IMG/VR virus record: IMGVR_UViG_3300005429_000004
Coordinates: 1-29,974 of that record
Reading direction: 5' to 3' (one strand)
Source of the DNA: a virus
Length of the DNA: 29,974 bases
Positions 7,635 to 29,974 of the stretch are shown here, one piece after another. A program made the position numbers and the translations under genes. A model generated the notes under the pieces. That model did not search any database. It had not been told where the DNA came from and saw nothing but the letters and a program-made list of their open reading frames with translations. Within the stretch, counting starts at the first letter, position 1. Each line of letters starts with the position of its first letter.

Positions 7635-7860
7635 AGTACACCATATTAGCGGCAGATAGAGGAAGACCAATGAAAAGCAGGACCTAGATAACCGCACTAG
7701 ACTTACTCACATTTATTGATAGATTACCAATTACGGTAATGCATAAAAGATAAGAGTGGTTTAGGGCCTAACAACAATCGCGGCGTAGCCCGAATAAATG
7801 TTTTCAGATAGCGAGCCCCCTGTAGAGAATCAATAGTACCTACAGGGGGTTAATCTTTTC
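7635..7860 (+). ncRNA. Candidate structured non-coding RNA
   Basis: About 225 bases with no reasonable reading frame on either strand, lying between a promoter-like region and a perfect terminator. Visible pairings include ATTACC with GGTAAT around AATTAC (near 7723-7740), GCGG near 7651 with CCGC near 7693, GGGC with GCCC near 7766-7790, and the terminator stem. Short strings recall RNase P RNA in the right order (GAGGAAGACC, GCAGGACCTAGATAACCGC, GATAAGAG, GAATAAATG, CAGATA), but the P4 helix does not form with these segments. I therefore call it only a candidate RNA. It is not a tRNA or tmRNA. Confidence 0.5.
7816..7859 (+). terminator. Strong rho-independent terminator
   Basis: A perfect 10-bp stem (CCCCCTGTAG with CTACAGGGGG, 14-base loop) is followed by TTAATCTTTT. 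It ends the candidate RNA and insulates the following genes. Confidence 0.85.
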
Positions 7861-7874
7861 TGCTATATAATAGT

Positions 7875-8096
7875 ATGTTTAGAAAAATTTTAAATTGGTT
7901 TAGTAAATTTGGTGATTGGATGGCGCAAAGTGATAGAGAAATGCGTGAAGCCGGTTACATTGTTAGTTGGCCACCTATGGGATGCTCTTTTGGTGCTCCG
8001 TACGTTCATTATATAGGACCACCTAAAAAACCCCATATAAATAAACAAACTAATGATAGACCTAACACCATTTCAGGAGAAGATCCAAGAACTTAA
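7875..8096 (+). CDS. Small unknown protein upstream of hemA
   Basis: 73 residues. The N-terminal 20 residues look amphipathic ([18 protein letters not shown]), then a Pro/Gly-rich stretch ([20 protein letters not shown]) and a polar tail. It starts right after an isolated TATAAT-like box with no recognisable -35 or ribosome site, so start and expression are uncertain. The last 44 bases overlap hemA in another frame, and the hemA late promoter lies within it. Not recognised; could be a non-coding spacer. Confidence 0.45.
8036..8043 (+). promoter_or_regulatory. Perfect late promoter of hemA, nine bases from the start codon
   Basis: TATAAATA ends nine bases before the hemA ATG. By T4 late-promoter geometry the transcript would start about four bases before the ATG. 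No Shine-Dalgarno is present. Confidence 0.65.
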
Positions 8097-9258
8097 AGAT
8101 AACGGCAATTACCGTGTCTTTAACGATATTCTCCGTACCAGAGGACAATATCCTAACGCCATATGGTATGGCAAATATAATATTAAGGATATTGTAAATT
8201 GGTGTTCAAATGATTACCTAGGTATGGGACAACATCCAGTTGTTTTAGATGCCATGAAAACTGCCCTTAACCAGACAGGTGCGGGTGCAGGTGGCACACG
8301 AAATATTGCTGGAACATCTCATTATCATGTTGCATTAGAGTATGAGTTAGCTTCTCTGCATAGCAAAGAGTCAGCTCTGCTTTATACTTCAGCTTATGTT
8401 GCCAACGAATGGACATTGATTGCTCTTAAACGAATCATTCCCGACATTGAATTTGTAAGTGATAGTAAAAATCACGCTTCATTAATTGAAGGAATCAGAA
8501 ACAGTGGTGCTAAGAAACATATTTTTAAGCACAATGATCTAGAGCAGTTAGAAAGTATACTGAAAGACGTCAAAGGAACACCTTGTGTTGTTTTTGAGTC
8601 TGTGTATAGCATGGATGGATATGTCAGTAAATTAGATGACATTCTCAACTTAGCTGAAAAATATAATGCCGTTACATATCTTGATGAAGTCCACGCCGTT
8701 GGCCTGTATGGTGAAACAGGTGCTGGTTGGTCAGCAAAGCAAGGATCACAGGACAGAGTTGATATATTAAATGGTACGTTAGGTAAAGCCTTTGGTGTAC
8801 AGGGTGGATATATAGCAGGGAAGGCAGTTGTCTTAGACGCTATCCGTTCGGTCGCCTCAGGTTTTATTTTTACTACTTCTTTATCACCAGTCACTTGTGC
8901 TGGTGCTTTAGCAAGTGTAAAATATTTGCAGGACAACAATCAACTACGAGTACAACATCAGGAACGTGCTAGTCATTTAAAGGACCTATTAAGAGCGAAT
9001 GGTTTACAAATTTTTGAAAATGAAACACATATAGTACCGGTCTTCGTAGGAGACGCAAAACGCTGTAAAGCAATGAGCGATGCCTTAATCAATGATTTTG
9101 GAATTTATTGTCAGGCTATTAACTATCCTACAGTAGAGGTAGGTACTGAACGTTTACGGTTTGCTCCAACTCCGCATCATACAGATGCTATGATGGACAA
9201 TTTAGTAGATGCTTTAGTTAAAGTAGAGACAAAGTCACATAGAAAGGCTTTTCTCTAA
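8053..9258 (+). CDS. hemA: 5-aminolevulinate synthase (ALAS)
   Basis: 401 residues, the full length of bacterial ALAS. It condenses glycine and succinyl-CoA to 5-aminolevulinate, the first step of heme synthesis by the C4 route of alphaproteobacteria, using PLP. ALAS-specific blocks are intact: [57 protein letters not shown], the PLP lysine in [16 protein letters not shown] (K245), FIFTTSLSP, and [13 protein letters not shown] near the end. This set separates it from its relatives BioF, Kbl and SPT. No truncation or frameshift. It is driven by a perfect late box abutting the ATG and followed after 10 bases by a DUF454 membrane protein. A hemD-like gene lies 7 kb away. Confidence 0.95.
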
Positions 9259-12709: not shown

Positions 12710-13213
12710 ATGGCAGAGATAGAGTATAAAGGAATTAAAGTAGGGGGCAGTAAGCTCTTAATAGTTATACCATTGATTGGTACTATTATGGGTGGCCTAT
12801 GGGGAGGCTTCGAACTCTTTAATAGATATCAAATGATGGAAGCAAAGATTAACAAATATGTTGCTCCAGATCTTTCAGACTTTGATAAACGCATAGCATT
12901 AATTGAAGGAAAGCTAGTAGAAATACAAGAGTCAGTTATAACTGCTAGAGATTATACACGTGATATTAAAATAGATCTTAAAGAGGATCTAGATTATGTA
13001 ACAAACCTAACTGAAGATTCAAACAAAGAAACAAAGTTATTAGATAGAGAGTTACGTGCTGATATCAATGCAAGTGTTAAAGATATTAAAGCTCAAATGA
13101 AAACAGTTCAAACAGAGATAGAAGAATCACTTGAGAAGACAGAAGAAAATATTAATAAGAAGATTGAGAAAGCATTAGAAAATCCATTAGCTGGTATGGC
13201 TACTTCAAAATAG
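12710..13213 (+). CDS. Membrane-anchored coiled-coil protein
   Basis: 167 residues. One membrane segment at about 16-38 (LLIVIPLIGTIMGGLWGGF) is followed by about 120 residues of heptad-rich, highly charged sequence with long helices (FDKRIALIEGKLVEIQES; DIKAQMKTVQTEIEESLEK). The plan of one N-terminal anchor plus a long coiled coil recalls inner-membrane spanins and TolA-like proteins, but no partner lipoprotein is adjacent. Excellent ribosome site (AAGGAGGGC). Third gene of the exported cassette. Its end overlaps the convergent talC end by 14 bases. Confidence 0.75.
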   Translation: MAEIEYKGIKVGGSKLLIVIPLIGTIMGGLWGGFELFNRYQMMEAKINKYVAPDLSDFDKRIALIEGKLVEIQESVITARDYTRDIKIDLKEDLDYVTNLTEDSNKETKLLDRELRADINASVKDIKAQMKTVQTEIEESLEKTEENINKKIEKALENPLAGMATSK

Positions 13214-13856
13214 TTTGCCCTGTACTTGCCCAGTCGGCCATAAAGCTATCTAATCCTTTTTTAGTTAATATGTGTTCATACATCTTATAGACAACGTCTG
13301 GCGGTATAGTTACTACTTGAGCACCTAGTACAGCCGCTAGTTCGACATGTTTTACACTTCTAACACTTGCTACTAACACTTCAGTTTTAAATCCTTGTAC
13401 ACAATACATTTTAACAATATCAGCAATAAGATTCATACCATCTTCCCCAATATCATCTAAGCGTCCGACAAAGGGTGAGATATAAGTTGCTCCAGCCTTT
13501 GCGGCTAACAAGGCTTGGGCTACACTAAAACATAATGTAACGTTTACTTCAATACCTAAATGTCTTAACGTCTTACAAGCAATTAAGCCATCAACTGTTA
13601 ATGGAACTTTAACAACAACATTGTCTGCCAAACTTGCTAGATATTGCCCTTCTTGAACCATATGAGCATGATCTATTGCTGTTACTTCAGCACTAACAGG
13701 CCCATTCTGTATATTACAAATGCCCTTAATAGTTTTAGCCATATCATCGCCATTCTTATATATAAGCGAAGGATTAGTAGTTACTCCATCTACCATACCG
13801 GTAGGAATTAGTTCTAAAATTTTGTCTATATTAGCTGTATCAATAAAAAATTTCAC
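13200..13856 (-). CDS. talC: TalC-type transaldolase / fructose-6-phosphate aldolase family
   Basis: 218 residues, the usual length of the short TalC/FSA branch. It opens KFFIDTANID, has GVTTNPSL (24-31), the Schiff-base lysine in NVVVKVPLT (K83), NVTLCFSVAQAL, AGATYISPFVGRLDD and EVLVASVRS in the expected order. It transfers a dihydroxyacetone unit in the non-oxidative pentose phosphate pathway. Marine T4-like phages, notably cyanophages, carry this gene, where it is thought to push carbon toward NADPH and ribose for nucleotides. It starts with GTG (AAGGAG six bases upstream) and is preceded after 10 bases by the 13867-14130 gene. Confidence 0.93.
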   Translation of the reverse strand: MKFFIDTANIDKILELIPTGMVDGVTTNPSLIYKNGDDMAKTIKGICNIQNGPVSAEVTAIDHAHMVQEGQYLASLADNVVVKVPLTVDGLIACKTLRHLGIEVNVTLCFSVAQALLAAKAGATYISPFVGRLDDIGEDGMNLIADIVKMYCVQGFKTEVLVASVRSVKHVELAAVLGAQVVTIPPDVVYKMYEHILTKKGLDSFMADWASTGQTILK

Positions 13857-17997: not shown

Positions 17998-18000
17998 GGG

Positions 18001-19835: not shown

Positions 19836-19844
19836 TCTTAGGGG

Positions 19845-21947: not shown

Positions 21948-22190
21948 TGAATTCTATGCTAGGAACTAGGACATCCGAAGCATAGAGGTTTTCAGCCGTT
22001 GCGGCTTGTTTCTCCAGAGCATAGCTCAAATAAACAAAATCGCAAGACGGAAGCCTGAGAAGGATTCATGACAAAGGTTGACTGCCTACGCTAGAGTCAG
22101 CTGGGGGATTGAATTCGAGCCGATACTAGAGCTAGTAGATCGGGGAGTCTTTAAAACCAAGATCAGGCCCATTTTTATGTATTTTGGACA
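21948..22190 (+). ncRNA. Gene-free, structured-looking region (candidate ncRNA)
   Basis: About 240 bases with no plausible gene on either strand. It contains several stems: TCTATGCT (21953-21960) with AGCATAGA (21979-21986); AGCCG TTG CGGCT (21994-22006); GAGCATAGCTC near 22017-22027; TGACT with AGTCA near 22079-22099; and TACTAGAGCTAGTA near 22123-22137. It lacks a tRNA or known riboswitch signature that I can recognise. It may be an RNA processed from the P5 transcript or a long 3' untranslated region. Confidence 0.4.
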
Positions 22191-22200
22191 ATCTTAGGGG

Positions 22201-22229
22201 TTGACCTTTTGAGCCTTTGACCGTATAAT
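22201..22229 (+). promoter_or_regulatory. Early sigma70 promoter P6
   Basis: ATCTTAGGGG (22191-22200), TTGACC, 17 bases, TATAAT, shared tail GTATATAACAATAAGGCAA. The spacer ends TTTGACCG, a direct repeat of the -35 region. Confidence 0.85.
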
Positions 22230-22268
22230 GTATATAACAATAAGGCAATAAAACGAGAGGCAAAAAAC

Positions 22269-23241: not shown

Positions 23242-23453
23242 TGAAGGGTAAATGGAAATTCAAAGACCTAAACAAGAGATCAAACTATCATAAATTCGAA
23301 AAAATTGTTCGAAGGGATCAATTGGCGAATGCAAGACAAGAAGCTTTTAACAGATTCAAAAGAGAAGGTGATTCAGAACATATTGCCTTCGTTAAATGTT
23401 TGAATTATGTTGGGGTCAGAGAGCATAACCAAAACCAGAAAAATAGAGGTTGA
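23241..23453 (+). CDS. Small strongly basic unknown protein
   Basis: 70 residues, helical and Lys/Arg-rich: KFEKIVRRDQLANARQEAFN, RFKREGDSEHIAFVKCLNYV. Could bind nucleic acid. Its stop lies in the -35 of promoter P7. Confidence 0.63.
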   Translation: MKGKWKFKDLNKRSNYHKFEKIVRRDQLANARQEAFNRFKREGDSEHIAFVKCLNYVGVREHNQNQKNRG

Positions 23454-23478
23454 CTTTTTGAAGCTCAGACCTTATAAT
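23450..23478 (+). promoter_or_regulatory. Early sigma70 promoter P7
   Basis: TTGACT, 17 bases, TATAAT; the tail (AATGAGGCAAAAGAGAAGGC) is a divergent form of the shared one. The -35 overlaps the stop codon of the preceding gene. Confidence 0.78.
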
Positions 23479-23831: not shown

Positions 23832-24266
23832 GTGGACATCATATTCGACGTAGATGGAACTTTGATGGACATTTCACATCGCAAGAAGTTCGTAGAGTCG
23901 AAACCTAAAGACTGGGATAGTTTTAGGGAGCAGACTCCGGACGACAAACCAATCACCGAAATCTTCCAAGTGGCAATAGCCCTACAGAAAGCAGGTCATA
24001 GAATTATTATTGCCAGCGGTAGGAACAGAAGCCAACGAGGAATTACTCTAAAACAATTAATGGCTGAAGGATTGGTCTTTATTGATTTGTTCATGAGAAG
24101 CGACAAAGATTATAGATCTGATGTGGTTCTTAAGAAAGAGATGCTAGGAGCCATGAGACGAAAAGGTTATAATCCTAAAATGGTTTTTGATGACAGAAGT
24201 TCTGTCGTTCAAATGTGGAGAGATGAAGGCTTACGAGTGGCACAGGTTGCCCCGGGAGACTTTTGA
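23832..24266 (+). CDS. HAD 3'-phosphatase like the phosphatase domain of T4 polynucleotide kinase
   Basis: 144 residues. FDVDGTLMD gives the nucleophile D6 and acid/base D8 of the HAD fold; IIIASGRNRS is motif II with R64; YRSDVVLKKEML supplies the motif III lysine; MVFDDRSSVVQMWR (D120, D121) is motif IV. The C-terminal VVQMWR...VAQVAPGDF closely matches the end of T4 Pnkp (VVEMWR...WQVASGDF, from memory). That domain removes 3'-phosphates from RNA or DNA ends before ligation. Here no kinase domain is attached. GTG start with GGAGG upstream, preferred because the protein opens with the HAD strand. A pseudoknot lies five bases after the stop. A phosphatase for another substrate is possible. 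Confidence 0.85.
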   Translation: MDIIFDVDGTLMDISHRKKFVESKPKDWDSFREQTPDDKPITEIFQVAIALQKAGHRIIIASGRNRSQRGITLKQLMAEGLVFIDLFMRSDKDYRSDVVLKKEMLGAMRRKGYNPKMVFDDRSSVVQMWRDEGLRVAQVAPGDF

Positions 24267-24271
24267 ACAGG

Positions 24272-24319
24272 CCTGGCAATAAGGTGCTCGTCCAGTGCCA
24301 GGTAGTATCCTGGACGGGC
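24272..24319 (+). ncRNA. H-type RNA pseudoknot (7-bp and 10-bp stems)
   Basis: Stem 1: CCTGGCA (24272-24278) with TGCCAGG (24296-24302), perfect. Stem 2: GCTCGTCCAG (24286-24295) with CTGGACGGGC (24310-24319), nine Watson-Crick pairs and one G-U. The arms interleave (1, 2, 1', 2') with linkers of 7, 0 and 7 bases, the classic geometry of a coaxial H-type pseudoknot. It sits between the phosphatase stop and the next ribosome site (GGAGG at 24342). It may act as a regulatory element or riboswitch-like leader, or block RNA decay. Without the pseudoknot, the two stems could be alternative hairpins. Confidence 0.65.
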
Positions 24320-24350
24320 AATATATTAACCAACAACCAACGGAGGCTAT

Positions 24351-24542
24351 ATGATTAAGGCAAACAACGAAAAAAATAAAATTGATAATCGATCAGAAAA
24401 TGAAATTGAGCATGATCGAATGATGAAAGAATTCTTCGACAGAGGCGGAGTGGTCCAAAAAATACCCGCAGGTATTACAGGGTCTGAATATTATGGAACT
24501 CCAGCAGTCGTAAATAAATGGGCAAAAAAGAAGAAAAAATAA
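24351..24542 (+). CDS. Small basic T4-like protein
   Basis: 63 residues: NEIEHDRMMKEFFDRGGVVQ then IPAGITGSEYYGTP and a KKKK end. The D-R-M-x-x-E-F-x-x-x-GG-x-V/I-x-x-I/C-P pattern is, from memory, common in small T4-like cyanophage proteins. It follows the pseudoknot; GGAGG nine bases upstream. Confidence 0.68.
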   Translation: MIKANNEKNKIDNRSENEIEHDRMMKEFFDRGGVVQKIPAGITGSEYYGTPAVVNKWAKKKKK

Positions 24543-24544
24543 GG

Positions 24545-24573
24545 TTGACCTGCTAAATTTTAGGTGCTATAAT
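24545..24573 (+). promoter_or_regulatory. Early sigma70 promoter P8
   Basis: TTGACC, 17 bases, TATAAT and the shared GTATATAACAATTAGG tail. The spacer retains a partial repeat (ACCT and AGGT) and CTAAATTTTAG. Confidence 0.82.
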
Positions 24574-24614
24574 GTATATAACAATTAGGAACACTTAAAC
24601 GAGGAGTGATGCAT

Positions 24615-24821
24615 ATGACATCCAAGATCGTAATCAGGGACGCAACGAATACTCATTGGTCTTCAAAAACCAAAGAGGCAGGAAAATGTTTCAAAGTTAT
24701 TAAGCTCACCAATTACAAGAACTTCAAAATTTTGGGCCAACTCTTTACTCAACTAGAGTTGAAGAAGTTTTTAGAAAACCTACCATCCAGAGTCACCTAC
24801 GAAATCTTAGGAGAACAATAA
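24615..24821 (+). CDS. Small basic unknown protein
   Basis: 68 residues from the ATG at 24615, placed nine bases after GAGGAG; an ATG six bases earlier and a GTG are less likely. KIVIRDATNTHWSSKTKEAG, FKVIKLTNYKNFKILGQLF, a small alpha/beta-like protein. First gene of the P8 operon (seven genes, then a tRNA). Confidence 0.66.
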   Translation: MTSKIVIRDATNTHWSSKTKEAGKCFKVIKLTNYKNFKILGQLFTQLELKKFLENLPSRVTYEILGEQ

Positions 24822-24822
24822 A

Positions 24823-25044
24823 ATGGGTTATTATACTCTACCTCCAATCGATCGTAAACGGTACACCGACATAAAAGGACTTGAAGGACCGTTCGTAATG
24901 AATAGTGGTAAGGTTTTGTATTATGATCCTAAGGAAGGCAAGTATTACGATCGTGATACAGATTTCTATGTATCGAACGAAGATATGCTTCATCATAATA
25001 AATTGAGTCCTGAACTTTACACCTACCACGGAGGGCAATCATGA
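24823..25044 (+). CDS. Conserved T4-like small protein
   Basis: 73 residues: FVMNSGKVLYYDPKEGKYYD then RDTDFYVSNEDM. The 'G-x-V-L-Y-Y-D-P-x-E-G-K-Y-Y-D-R' repeat-like block is, from memory, shared with marine T4-like phages. Highly aromatic, acidic. One base after the previous stop; overlaps the next start. Confidence 0.7.
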   Translation: MGYYTLPPIDRKRYTDIKGLEGPFVMNSGKVLYYDPKEGKYYDRDTDFYVSNEDMLHHNKLSPELYTYHGGQS

Positions 25045-25265
25045 TAATGTATAATGTTGATGATGTTTTAACAGCCAGACGTTCGGATCCAAAGAAAACG
25101 AATAATCAATTTTTCACAGAATCAGTTGGTGGAATGACAAGAGAATGCGAACTGATTAATGCTCTGCTTGATATTAGAGATTCAAGCGAAAGCGGGTCAT
25201 ATGAAATGGCCACAGTAGATCAAACTTTAGGAAAAATGGGATATACCCCATGGACGAAGGGATAA
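25041..25265 (+). CDS. Small unknown protein
   Basis: 74 residues: RRSDPKKTNNQFFTESVGGM, RECELINALLDIRDSSESG, C-terminal GYTPWTKG. GGAGGGC site. Overlaps the previous gene by four bases (ATGA). Confidence 0.65.
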   Translation: MIMYNVDDVLTARRSDPKKTNNQFFTESVGGMTRECELINALLDIRDSSESGSYEMATVDQTLGKMGYTPWTKG

Positions 25266-25268
25266 AGA

Positions 25269-25439
25269 ATGTTGAGAACTTTTATATTCCAAACGGCTAC
25301 AGAATCAATTGAGATTGTGGCAACAGGATTTAGGGGTGCCTGCGATACTTTGGCAGAGTCATTTCCAGCAATCAAAATCACAGATATCTTAGCCATGGAG
25401 GAGCATTTTTGTCCTAATATTAATGATACAATTCATTAG
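25269..25439 (+). CDS. 56-residue unknown protein
   Basis: LRTFIFQTATESIEIVATGF, RGACDTLAESFPAIKITDIL: a small alpha/beta profile with two Cys. Starts three bases after the previous stop (GAAGGGA). Reminiscent of small phage proteins with an 'E-A-D-x-L/Y-x-x-L' helix; unknown. Confidence 0.6.
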   Translation: MLRTFIFQTATESIEIVATGFRGACDTLAESFPAIKITDILAMEEHFCPNINDTIH

Positions 25440-25451
25440 GAGATTAAAGTT

Positions 25452-25724
25452 ATGTCAGTTCTAGTTGGTATTATGAGTATAGTATTTGGCGGTTATGTGG
25501 CACAACCACAATGGTTTAATGACGGACCATATGAGTTTCTTGAGGCACATCAATCTCAAGAAGAATGTCAGATAGTAGGAGCAGGAACGAGCGATATTTG
25601 TTCTGAAGGGAATCGATATGTTCTTTCAGATAAGAAAGCCCCTAAAGTATCTGAGTCAGCAAAATTTCAATTTGTCGATTGTGATTATTGGGCAGGTTGT
25701 TATGCAATGAAAGAGGAGAAGTAG
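25452..25724 (+). CDS. Small cysteine-containing, possibly exported protein
   Basis: 90 residues. The N-terminus (VLVGIMSIVFGGYVAQP) could be a short signal or membrane anchor. Four to five Cys (EECQIV, DICSEG, DCDYWAGCY) suggest disulfides in the periplasm. GGAG upstream. Unknown family. Confidence 0.63.
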   Translation: MSVLVGIMSIVFGGYVAQPQWFNDGPYEFLEAHQSQEECQIVGAGTSDICSEGNRYVLSDKKAPKVSESAKFQFVDCDYWAGCYAMKEEK

Positions 25725-25727
25725 AAG

Positions 25728-26000
25728 ATGTTAAAAATAGACGAAGTGGTACCTGGTAAGGCATTTGCCTGTAAATTTAAGGTCGTGACAATGTTAGATA
25801 CATTTGGACGACCCAACGGGCTATCTGATGTACCTTTAGCAGGTCCAGGCGACTATGAAGGCTTTGGTCTTATTAAAGTTCGCGACATGGAGTCTAAGCA
25901 GGTTAGGGTTGTAGATCAAGAGAGCGGAAAAGAATTCATCGTTTCTTTTGATAATATTTGGGATATCGATGAAGCCATTCTGAAAGAAGATAAAGAATGA
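25728..26000 (+). CDS. Conserved T4-like early protein
   Basis: 90 residues. GKAFACKFKVVTMLDTFGRP, LAGPGDYEGFGLIKVRDMES, KEFIVSFDNIWDID. From memory this block order occurs in many marine T4-like phages, with no assigned function. Two or three beta strands suggest a small barrel. GAGGAG site. Confidence 0.72.
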   Translation: MLKIDEVVPGKAFACKFKVVTMLDTFGRPNGLSDVPLAGPGDYEGFGLIKVRDMESKQVRVVDQESGKEFIVSFDNIWDIDEAILKEDKE

Positions 26001-26346: not shown

Positions 26347-26360
26347 GACAATCTTAGGGG

Positions 26361-29184: not shown

Positions 29185-29374
29185 CCTATTGACGTTATCA
29201 CACGCCAGAACTTTTACATATACCTTAGTCAACCCTATAAGCCCTTTATAGTCTACGTCGTTGCTACGCCACGTCATAGATGCTTTCGCTATGCTCAAGC
29301 CTTCTTAGAATGCCTTAGATGCATTAGAGTCAGACGTGCTAGAGAGTCTTTTGGCTCTGCCTAAAGCGACCCCT

Positions 29375-29387
29375 AGGCCCCGCTGTA
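29375..29387 (+). repeat. Dispersed GC-rich repeat, copy 3
   Basis: AGGCCCCGCTGTA, 13 bases identical to copies 1 and 2. Confidence 0.8.
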
Positions 29388-29412
29388 CGGTCCTAGACCA
29401 TATGGCCACGGT

Positions 29413-29423
29413 GGCCCCGCTGT
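29413..29423 (+). repeat. Dispersed GC-rich repeat, copy 4 (shorter)
   Basis: GGCCCCGCTGT, 38 bases after copy 3, preceded by a TGGCCACGGTGGCC stretch. Confidence 0.7.
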
Positions 29424-29452
29424 TAAAAGGACAGAATTTTGAGGAAGATAGA

Positions 29453-29545
29453 ATGACTGACCTAGACAGAATCCTAATACCTTTAGCATTATTCCTTATG
29501 GAGGAGATCGGTTGGCTCCTTATGGTACGAGCATTGGTGCTATGA
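29453..29545 (+). CDS. Possible 30-residue membrane peptide
   Basis: MTDLDRILIPLALFLMEEIG, then WLLMVRALVL. GAGGAAG lies about eight bases upstream of the ATG. Its acidic-hydrophobic pattern could be a real small membrane protein, but the region is gene-poor and the call is weak. Confidence 0.3.
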   Translation: MTDLDRILIPLALFLMEEIGWLLMVRALVL

Positions 29546-29834
29546 GGTTTTCACGCCCGAAGGTATTGGTTGGCTTGAAGAGTATTCAAACTATGCCTCT
29601 CGCCACCTCGACCTTGCCAAAATTTCTTACTCTTAAAAAGTGTAAAAAATCCACACAAAAGACCCCAAAATAGAGAGACCCCTGGCCAAACAAACACCAA
29701 AAATGGCCTATTATAGGGGTGGCATTTACACCATAGAACCTCGAGTGATACATGAGGTTTCTTGACATGGTGGGGTCTCTATAGTGTCAATGGTTCTGAG
29801 GAGAGCTGTAATAGGGATGCCTCAGCTGACCATC

Positions 29835-29970
29835 CTCACTATGCCTCACTATGGCCACTGTCATGGCCACTACCATGGCCCCTCACTATAAGCTCACTAA
29901 GGCCACTAGGGACGGTCACTACTATAAGCTCACTAGGCTCACTGTGAAAGCTCACTACTATAAGCTCACT
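29835..29970 (+). repeat. CTCACT repeat array (continues past the window edge)
   Basis: CTCACT occurs eight times in 136 bases, with CCACT/GTCACT variants between. The 19-mer CACTACTATAAGCTCACTA is exact at 29917-29935 and 29953-29971, and TATAAGCTCACTA occurs three times. Same orientation throughout. Confidence 0.85.
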
Positions 29971-29974
29971 AAGA

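Follow-up and report, generated by a model that had tools for sequence, protein, structure and literature searches.

A compact H-type pseudoknot directly behind a 3'-phosphatase gene in a viral genome and its possible part in the fate of two neighbouring cistrons

The stretch of viral DNA analysed here (29,974 nucleotides, IMG/VR record IMGVR_UViG_3300005429_000004, henceforth the window) carries a gene for a stand-alone PNKP/PseT-type HAD 3'-phosphatase, followed on the same strand by an ORF of 63 residues (Table 1). The phosphatase matches PF25109 (E=4.4e-31), bears the PHROG annotation polynucleotide kinase and has homologues in 3262 phage records by tblastn. The window protein has no kinase domain, to which this phosphatase is often fused in phages. 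Transcription across the intergenic region probably begins at a sigma70-like promoter upstream of the gene. The spacer between the phosphatase and the 63-aa ORF measures 84 nt and is 51% G+C, compared with 37% for the window, and its first 53 nt consist of an H-type pseudoknot and a 5-nt lead.

Table 1. Features of the phosphatase locus and of the alternative element in related contigs
Feature	Position	Strand	Details
Promoter, sigma70-like, TTGACT-17-TATAAT	23450..23478	+	consensus match only
Stand-alone PNKP/PseT-type HAD 3'-phosphatase	23832..24266	+	GTG start; UGA stop 24264-24266
Spacer between stop and pseudoknot, 5 nt	24267..24271	+	ACAGG (sequence)
Stem 1, 5' arm	24272..24278	+	CCTGGCA; CCTGGCG in G001
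Loop 1, 7 nt	24279..24285	+	ATAAGGT; 8 nt in G001
Stem 2, 5' arm	24286..24295	+	GCTCGTCCAG (sequence, G001 comparison)
Stem 1, 3' arm	24296..24302	+	TGCCAGG; abuts stem 2, L2 = 0 nt
Loop 3, 7 nt	24303..24309	+	TAGTATC; TAATACC in G001
Stem 2, 3' arm	24310..24319	+	CTGGACGGGC (sequence, G001 comparison)
Leader of next gene	24320..24350	+	A/C-rich, predicted unstructured; Shine-Dalgarno GGAGG 24342-24346
63-aa ORF	24351..24542	+	AUG at 24351; basic C-terminus
Promoter TTGACC-17-TATAAT	24545..24573	+	consensus
Alternative element behind the phosphatase	L043:1936-2036; L044:1936-2036; also L045		

Direct reading of the sequence confirmed the pseudoknot to the base at 24272-24319 on the + strand, and the stems, linkers, coordinates and 5-base distance from the stop codon that had been given in a first-pass annotation of this DNA all proved exact. 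Its segments follow the UGA in the order listed in Table 1. Stem 1 pairs 24272-24278 with 24296-24302 (7 bp), stem 2 pairs 24286-24295 with 24310-24319 (10 bp, including one G.U, T24288.G24317), and the linkers L1/L2/L3 measure 7/0/7 nt. Given that L2 has no nucleotides, the two stems are expected to stack coaxially. One extra weak pair is possible per stem (24271.24303 and 24285-24320), and alternative pairings can be formed by CCAGG at 24298-24302 with 24309-24313 and by 24246-24258 with 24308-24321.

The annotation had judged chance an unlikely source of so precise a fold, and shuffling bears this out. The summed stacking energy of the pseudoknot is -40.9 kcal/mol, whereas 847 dinucleotide-shuffled windows yield -33.0 at best. 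When the local stretch of 64 nt or of 84 nt is shuffled 50,000 times each, -40.2 is never reached (best -31.3 and -35.1, respectively), and when stem 2 is held fixed and the rest shuffled, an equally stable stem 1 arises in 2 of 200,000 cases (p about 1e-5). On both strands of the window, of a relative that shares the pseudoknot (G001, 75 kb, see below) and of five syntenic relatives (309 kb), about 415 kb altogether, nothing else passes -33. A loose count of 7+10 bp arms, allowing one G.U per stem and flexible linkers, finds 6 matches in 102 shuffled 30-kb strands; arm length by itself is only moderately unusual, and the ranking by stacking energy is decisive. The knot is predicted to lie 4 to 9 kcal/mol below every nested fold in the window and in G001, including a competitor that pairs the 3' end of the phosphatase gene (24246-24258) with 24308-24321; the energy is a stacking sum to which a simple penalty in the style of Dirks and Pierce was added, so only the sign of the difference is trustworthy. 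That the fold is a product of chance with no function is extremely improbable: it is known from two contigs only, and a mere count shows arms of this size and flexible spacing to be no great rarity, but the energy and conditional tests (0 in 847, 0 in 50,000 and 2 in 200,000) speak against chance, as does the retention of the structure in G001 despite five nearby changes. We conclude that the pseudoknot is a real, well-formed RNA structure beyond chance.

The second-strongest pseudoknot-like match of the window is a strong hairpin, AGCCCCCTGTAG...CTACAGGGGGTT, at 7814-7866; it lies in a gene-free stretch, is present in G001 too and is possibly a terminator.

One relative keeps the pseudoknot: G001 (IMGVR_UViG_3300021087_000009), whose phosphatase is 91% identical to that of the window. 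Within 24272-24319 the two genomes differ by five events, A24278G, G24283T, an inserted T in loop 1, G24305A and T24308C. Four of the five fall in loops, and the sole stem change, A24278G, turns an A-U pair into G.U and leaves the pairing intact. At least 58 nt on each flank are identical, including the whole leader (24320..24350); with the flanks identical and the loops variable, the arms, save for this wobble, thus sit unchanged between two variable loops. For these two sequences the bias of changes toward loops is weak (Fisher p=0.07), and they offer a single wobble change that preserves pairing and no pair altered at both positions in a compensatory way. Arms that change without compensation, which the annotation had named as the observation that would tell against the fold, did not occur in this comparison of two sequences. 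On a larger scale, window 24050-25950 is nearly identical to G001 (0-5 changes in most 50-nt segments) and is bordered on both sides by more divergent sequence, a pattern that looks like a recent exchange of a gene segment.

The wobble T24288.G24317 is found in both genomes and the wobble 24278.24296 in G001. On the other strand both would be A.C or C.A mismatches, which argues that the selected form is the + strand RNA. This observation bears on the possibility that the arms form a DNA-level element, either an inverted repeat for recombination or protein binding or a by-product of gene rearrangement. The junction between the phosphatase and the 63-aa ORF is indeed specific to the window lineage, the nearby gene order is rearranged in relatives, and the four arms are alike (CCTGG/CCAG), as if derived from a duplicated repeat. 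However, the two non-Watson-Crick pairs are of the G.U type when read on the + strand and mismatches on the other, a DNA palindrome has no need of interleaved arms, and a search of the window and of seven related contigs yielded no second copy. We therefore regard a DNA-level element as very unlikely.

Exact and gapped DNA patterns of the arms, run against viral contigs, returned G001 plus chance matches only, and blastn against phages and plasmids gave no match. A scan of distant phosphatase loci, comprising 16 further viral contig loci (49-62%), 80 loci found by profile and 5 in genome contigs, revealed a counterpart only in copies of G001. Rfam covariance models detect only tRNA in the window and, for 24200-24400 at E<=10, give chance matches only. 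The pseudoknot belongs to none of the RNA families described, and it would act in ways already known for cis-acting RNAs. Several riboswitch classes use compact H-type folds, and the alternative pairings described above could in principle serve a small ligand-binding aptamer that controls the 63-aa ORF. Such an aptamer is highly improbable, however, for there is neither an expression platform at the ribosome-binding site nor a terminator, and the loops, where a ligand would be expected to bind, are the very parts that changed between the two genomes. The riboswitch-like control proposed in the annotation is left unsupported by the lack of an Rfam match, of sequestration of the ribosome-binding site and of deep conservation.

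Its place 5 nt 3' of a UGA likens the pseudoknot to recoding signals such as the MuLV gag-pol readthrough pseudoknot and -1 frameshift signals. A ribosome that pauses at the knot might slip by +1 on UUU-UGA, rarely read through the stop codon or reinitiate at the next gene. UUU-UGA is slip-prone in principle, and the +1 tail is nearly alike in the two genomes (EQAWQ* in the window, EQAWR* in G001) because it ends before the insertion in loop 1. Viral recoding pseudoknots, as a rule the first- or second-ranked ones of their genome, have spacers and stem energies similar to the 5 nt and -41 seen here (PMC3835772); the window knot is likewise the strongest of its window. Against these similarities, a slippery heptamer of the X XXY YYZ type is absent (the sequence reads GAC UUU UGA), the +1 tail has only 5 residues, the 7-nt loop 1 is long for known stimulators, and, unlike in these, stem 2 is longer than stem 1. 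Moreover, the 1-nt indel in loop 1 makes both the readthrough and the -1 frame differ between the genomes. In-frame readthrough would add exactly 12 residues in the window (TGLAIRCSSSAR), as the annotation had stated, versus 30 codons in G001, the two being alike only in the first five, and no open frame is conserved downstream. Nearly all homologues of the phosphatase end at GDF with any of the three stop codons (UAA/UAG/UGA). The shift of frame in G001 and this variable stop codon disfavour the stop-codon readthrough that the annotation had listed among possible roles, and we consider an effect coupled to termination, in any of its forms, to be decidedly unlikely.

The main rival to the interpretation that we favour below looks downstream. 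In T4, the operator bound by gp32 on its own mRNA is a pseudoknot located 5' of an unstructured leader with the Shine-Dalgarno sequence (PMC535899), and the layout in the window is the same. By this analogy, the product of the 63-aa ORF or another phage protein would bind the pseudoknot and spread over the leader onto the ribosome-binding site. The window pseudoknot shares with those of T4, T2 and RB69 gene 32 the H-type fold, the intercistronic place in a large phage, the expected coaxial stacking of its stems and the position 5' of an unstructured leader and Shine-Dalgarno sequence; it ends at 24319, 22 nt before the Shine-Dalgarno sequence (24342, with the AUG at 24351), so that the ribosome-binding site is not covered. 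It is larger than the gene 32 pseudoknot (48 nt versus about 28 nt) and more GC-rich, and it differs further in standing directly behind a stop codon, in lacking a UUAAA/UAAA array and any sequence or Rfam match, and in preceding the 63-aa ORF and not the single-stranded DNA-binding protein gp32. The product of this ORF is small with a basic tail, but it falls in no Pfam or PHROG family, and the predicted model (mean pLDDT 75, pTM 0.44) gave no useful fold match among solved structures, so RNA binding would be a guess. Homologues of the ORF in relatives lie elsewhere, behind a promoter-like sequence of their own, whereas in the window lineage the ORF has no promoter of its own and would so have come under a new kind of control that lacks one. 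The joint conservation of pseudoknot and leader in G001 fits this proposal. On the other hand, nothing comparable to the knot occurs in the leaders that precede the ORF's homologues in L040-L044, and the knot lies nearer to the stop codon than to the Shine-Dalgarno sequence. Taken together, a translational operator of the gene 32 kind is possible, if somewhat unlikely. On account of the same leaders, we rejected the notion that pseudoknot and 63-aa ORF move together as a unit.

Type III toxin-antitoxin systems also place a short H-type pseudoknot RNA, ToxI, ahead of a small ORF. Unlike ToxI, the window pseudoknot is present as a single copy, with no tandem repeats and no terminator between RNA and gene, and the 63-aa ORF is too small for a ToxN endoribonuclease and has no family match.

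Elsewhere in the window, promoters of the form GTTGACCTTT-N-AAAGGTCATATAAT recur at 17999, 18978, 19843, 22199, 24543, 26359 and other positions. Some of their spacers are palindromic even when changed (GACCTTT/AAAGGTC at 19844, GATCTTT/AAAGATC at 26360), a sequence pattern that suggests an operator between -35 and -10. A 321-nt gene-free spacer before a promoter (21948-22268) is relatively G+C-rich (folding z -1.8), and a long stretch with no convincing gene (29190-29974) contains hairpins and imperfect tandem repeats (ACTATAAGCTCACTA...). An aminolevulinate-synthase-like aminotransferase (8053-9258, by eye, with a weak PHROG aminotransferase match) and a transaldolase-like protein (13200-13856, by eye) are likely encoded by auxiliary metabolic genes.

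Looking upstream instead, phosphatase homologues at 49-70% identity have different, mostly short 3' flanks, and in L040-L042 the next gene begins right at the phosphatase stop with no element between. The 60 nt after the phosphatase stop are not more structured than those after other genes (34 loci, p=0.37), which indicates that an element of this sort is no general requirement of phosphatase genes. In three syntenic contigs (L043, L044 and L045) the phosphatase stop is immediately followed by a different element of ~100 nt. When L043 is compared with L044, this element differs at 6 of 101 positions (94% identity), the phosphatase at 96 of 435 (78%, with 23 of 38 four-fold sites changed), and the flanking genes are 74-78% identical. 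The element contains a double compensatory change (CCUUAC:GUAAGG in L043, CCUAAC:GUUAGG in L044), and six of the seven differences at or after the stop codon are third positions of one frame, the seventh creating a stop in L043; judged from these sequences, it may be a conserved RNA or an overlapping short gene. The gene that follows is a homologue of window gene 25728 in L043 and of window gene 24823 in L044; the constant neighbour of the element is the phosphatase, an association that points to the cistron upstream. The element has no sequence similarity to the pseudoknot, and the two were therefore not taken for the same RNA. Its minimum free energy is unexceptional (z -0.6 and -0.2), it has no Rfam match, its possible peptide has no tblastn match, and it was found in three contigs only. 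Another syntenic relative has a gene-free, hairpin-rich region (L119:13234-13400) with a motif, CAGGGCGACTT, similar to CAGGGGGGCGACTT of the L044 element.

No intrinsic terminator was called at the pseudoknot, whose tail AATATATTAACC holds no U-tract. With no U-tract, terminator call, occlusion of the ribosome-binding site or Rfam family, its field of action would be the decay of mRNA, the translation of the following gene or termination; an exonuclease block and control or coupling of the downstream gene, both on the annotation's list of roles, may still apply. Within this field we tentatively favour a cis-acting element at the 3' end of the phosphatase cistron, which it would protect or insulate. 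Transcription would start from the promoter at about 23450, and the RNA behind the phosphatase stop would fold into the pseudoknot, its two coaxially stacked GC-rich stems acting as a structural 3' end. The leader of the 63-aa ORF, rich in A/U and A/C, would be where the polycistronic RNA is cut or where it decays from its 3' side; the knot would then stop 3'-to-5' exonucleases and spare the phosphatase message, giving the two cistrons different lifetimes. With the stop codon in the A site, the pseudoknot would also stand at the mRNA entry of the ribosome and insulate the cistrons from each other. This 3'-end reading is favoured by the place of the knot at the stop codon, its strength, the single-stranded leader that could be cut and the parallel in L043 and L044. 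In E. coli operons, intergenic or stop-proximal RNA structures that lack U-tracts stabilise upstream cistrons and lead to differential decay (PMC5927463). The pseudoknot resembles malE-malF-type 3'-protective structures in being a stable intercistronic fold just behind a stop codon with no U-tract, and differs from them in that those are hairpins shown by RNA mapping and it is a pseudoknot known from sequence. Several points weigh against the 3'-end reading: the flanks of 34 phosphatase loci show no excess of structure, the bias of changes toward loops is weak, the parallel element of L043 and L044 shares no sequence with the knot and is perhaps coding, and a plain hairpin would already block exonucleases, leaving the requirement for a pseudoknot unexplained.

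The nature of the upstream gene is of interest here. Pnk of T4, through its phosphatase activity, helps to destabilise mRNA from the 3' end, presumably because the treated ends suit PNPase better as substrates (PMC3014915). By analogy, this role makes a link between the window phosphatase gene and mRNA decay plausible. T4 RegB cuts GGAG sites and works with Pnk; it was not found in the seven contigs, which are fragments and were searched with no positive control.

Whichever of its neighbours it serves, the pseudoknot probably controls the decay or translation of the messages of two adjacent genes. It would be somewhat bold, and we think it unlikely, to see in it a second class of phage regulatory mRNA pseudoknot, unrelated to that of gene 32, in which a knot at the entry of the terminating ribosome sets the fate of two cistrons and a 3'-end phosphatase acting on RNA ends could feed back on decay. 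The tie to an RNA 3'-phosphatase is suggestive in view of the part that Pnk phosphatase plays in 3'-end mRNA decay in T4 (PMC3014915). A second statistically solid intergenic pseudoknot in a phage would make it testable whether large phages widely balance their cistrons by such folds.
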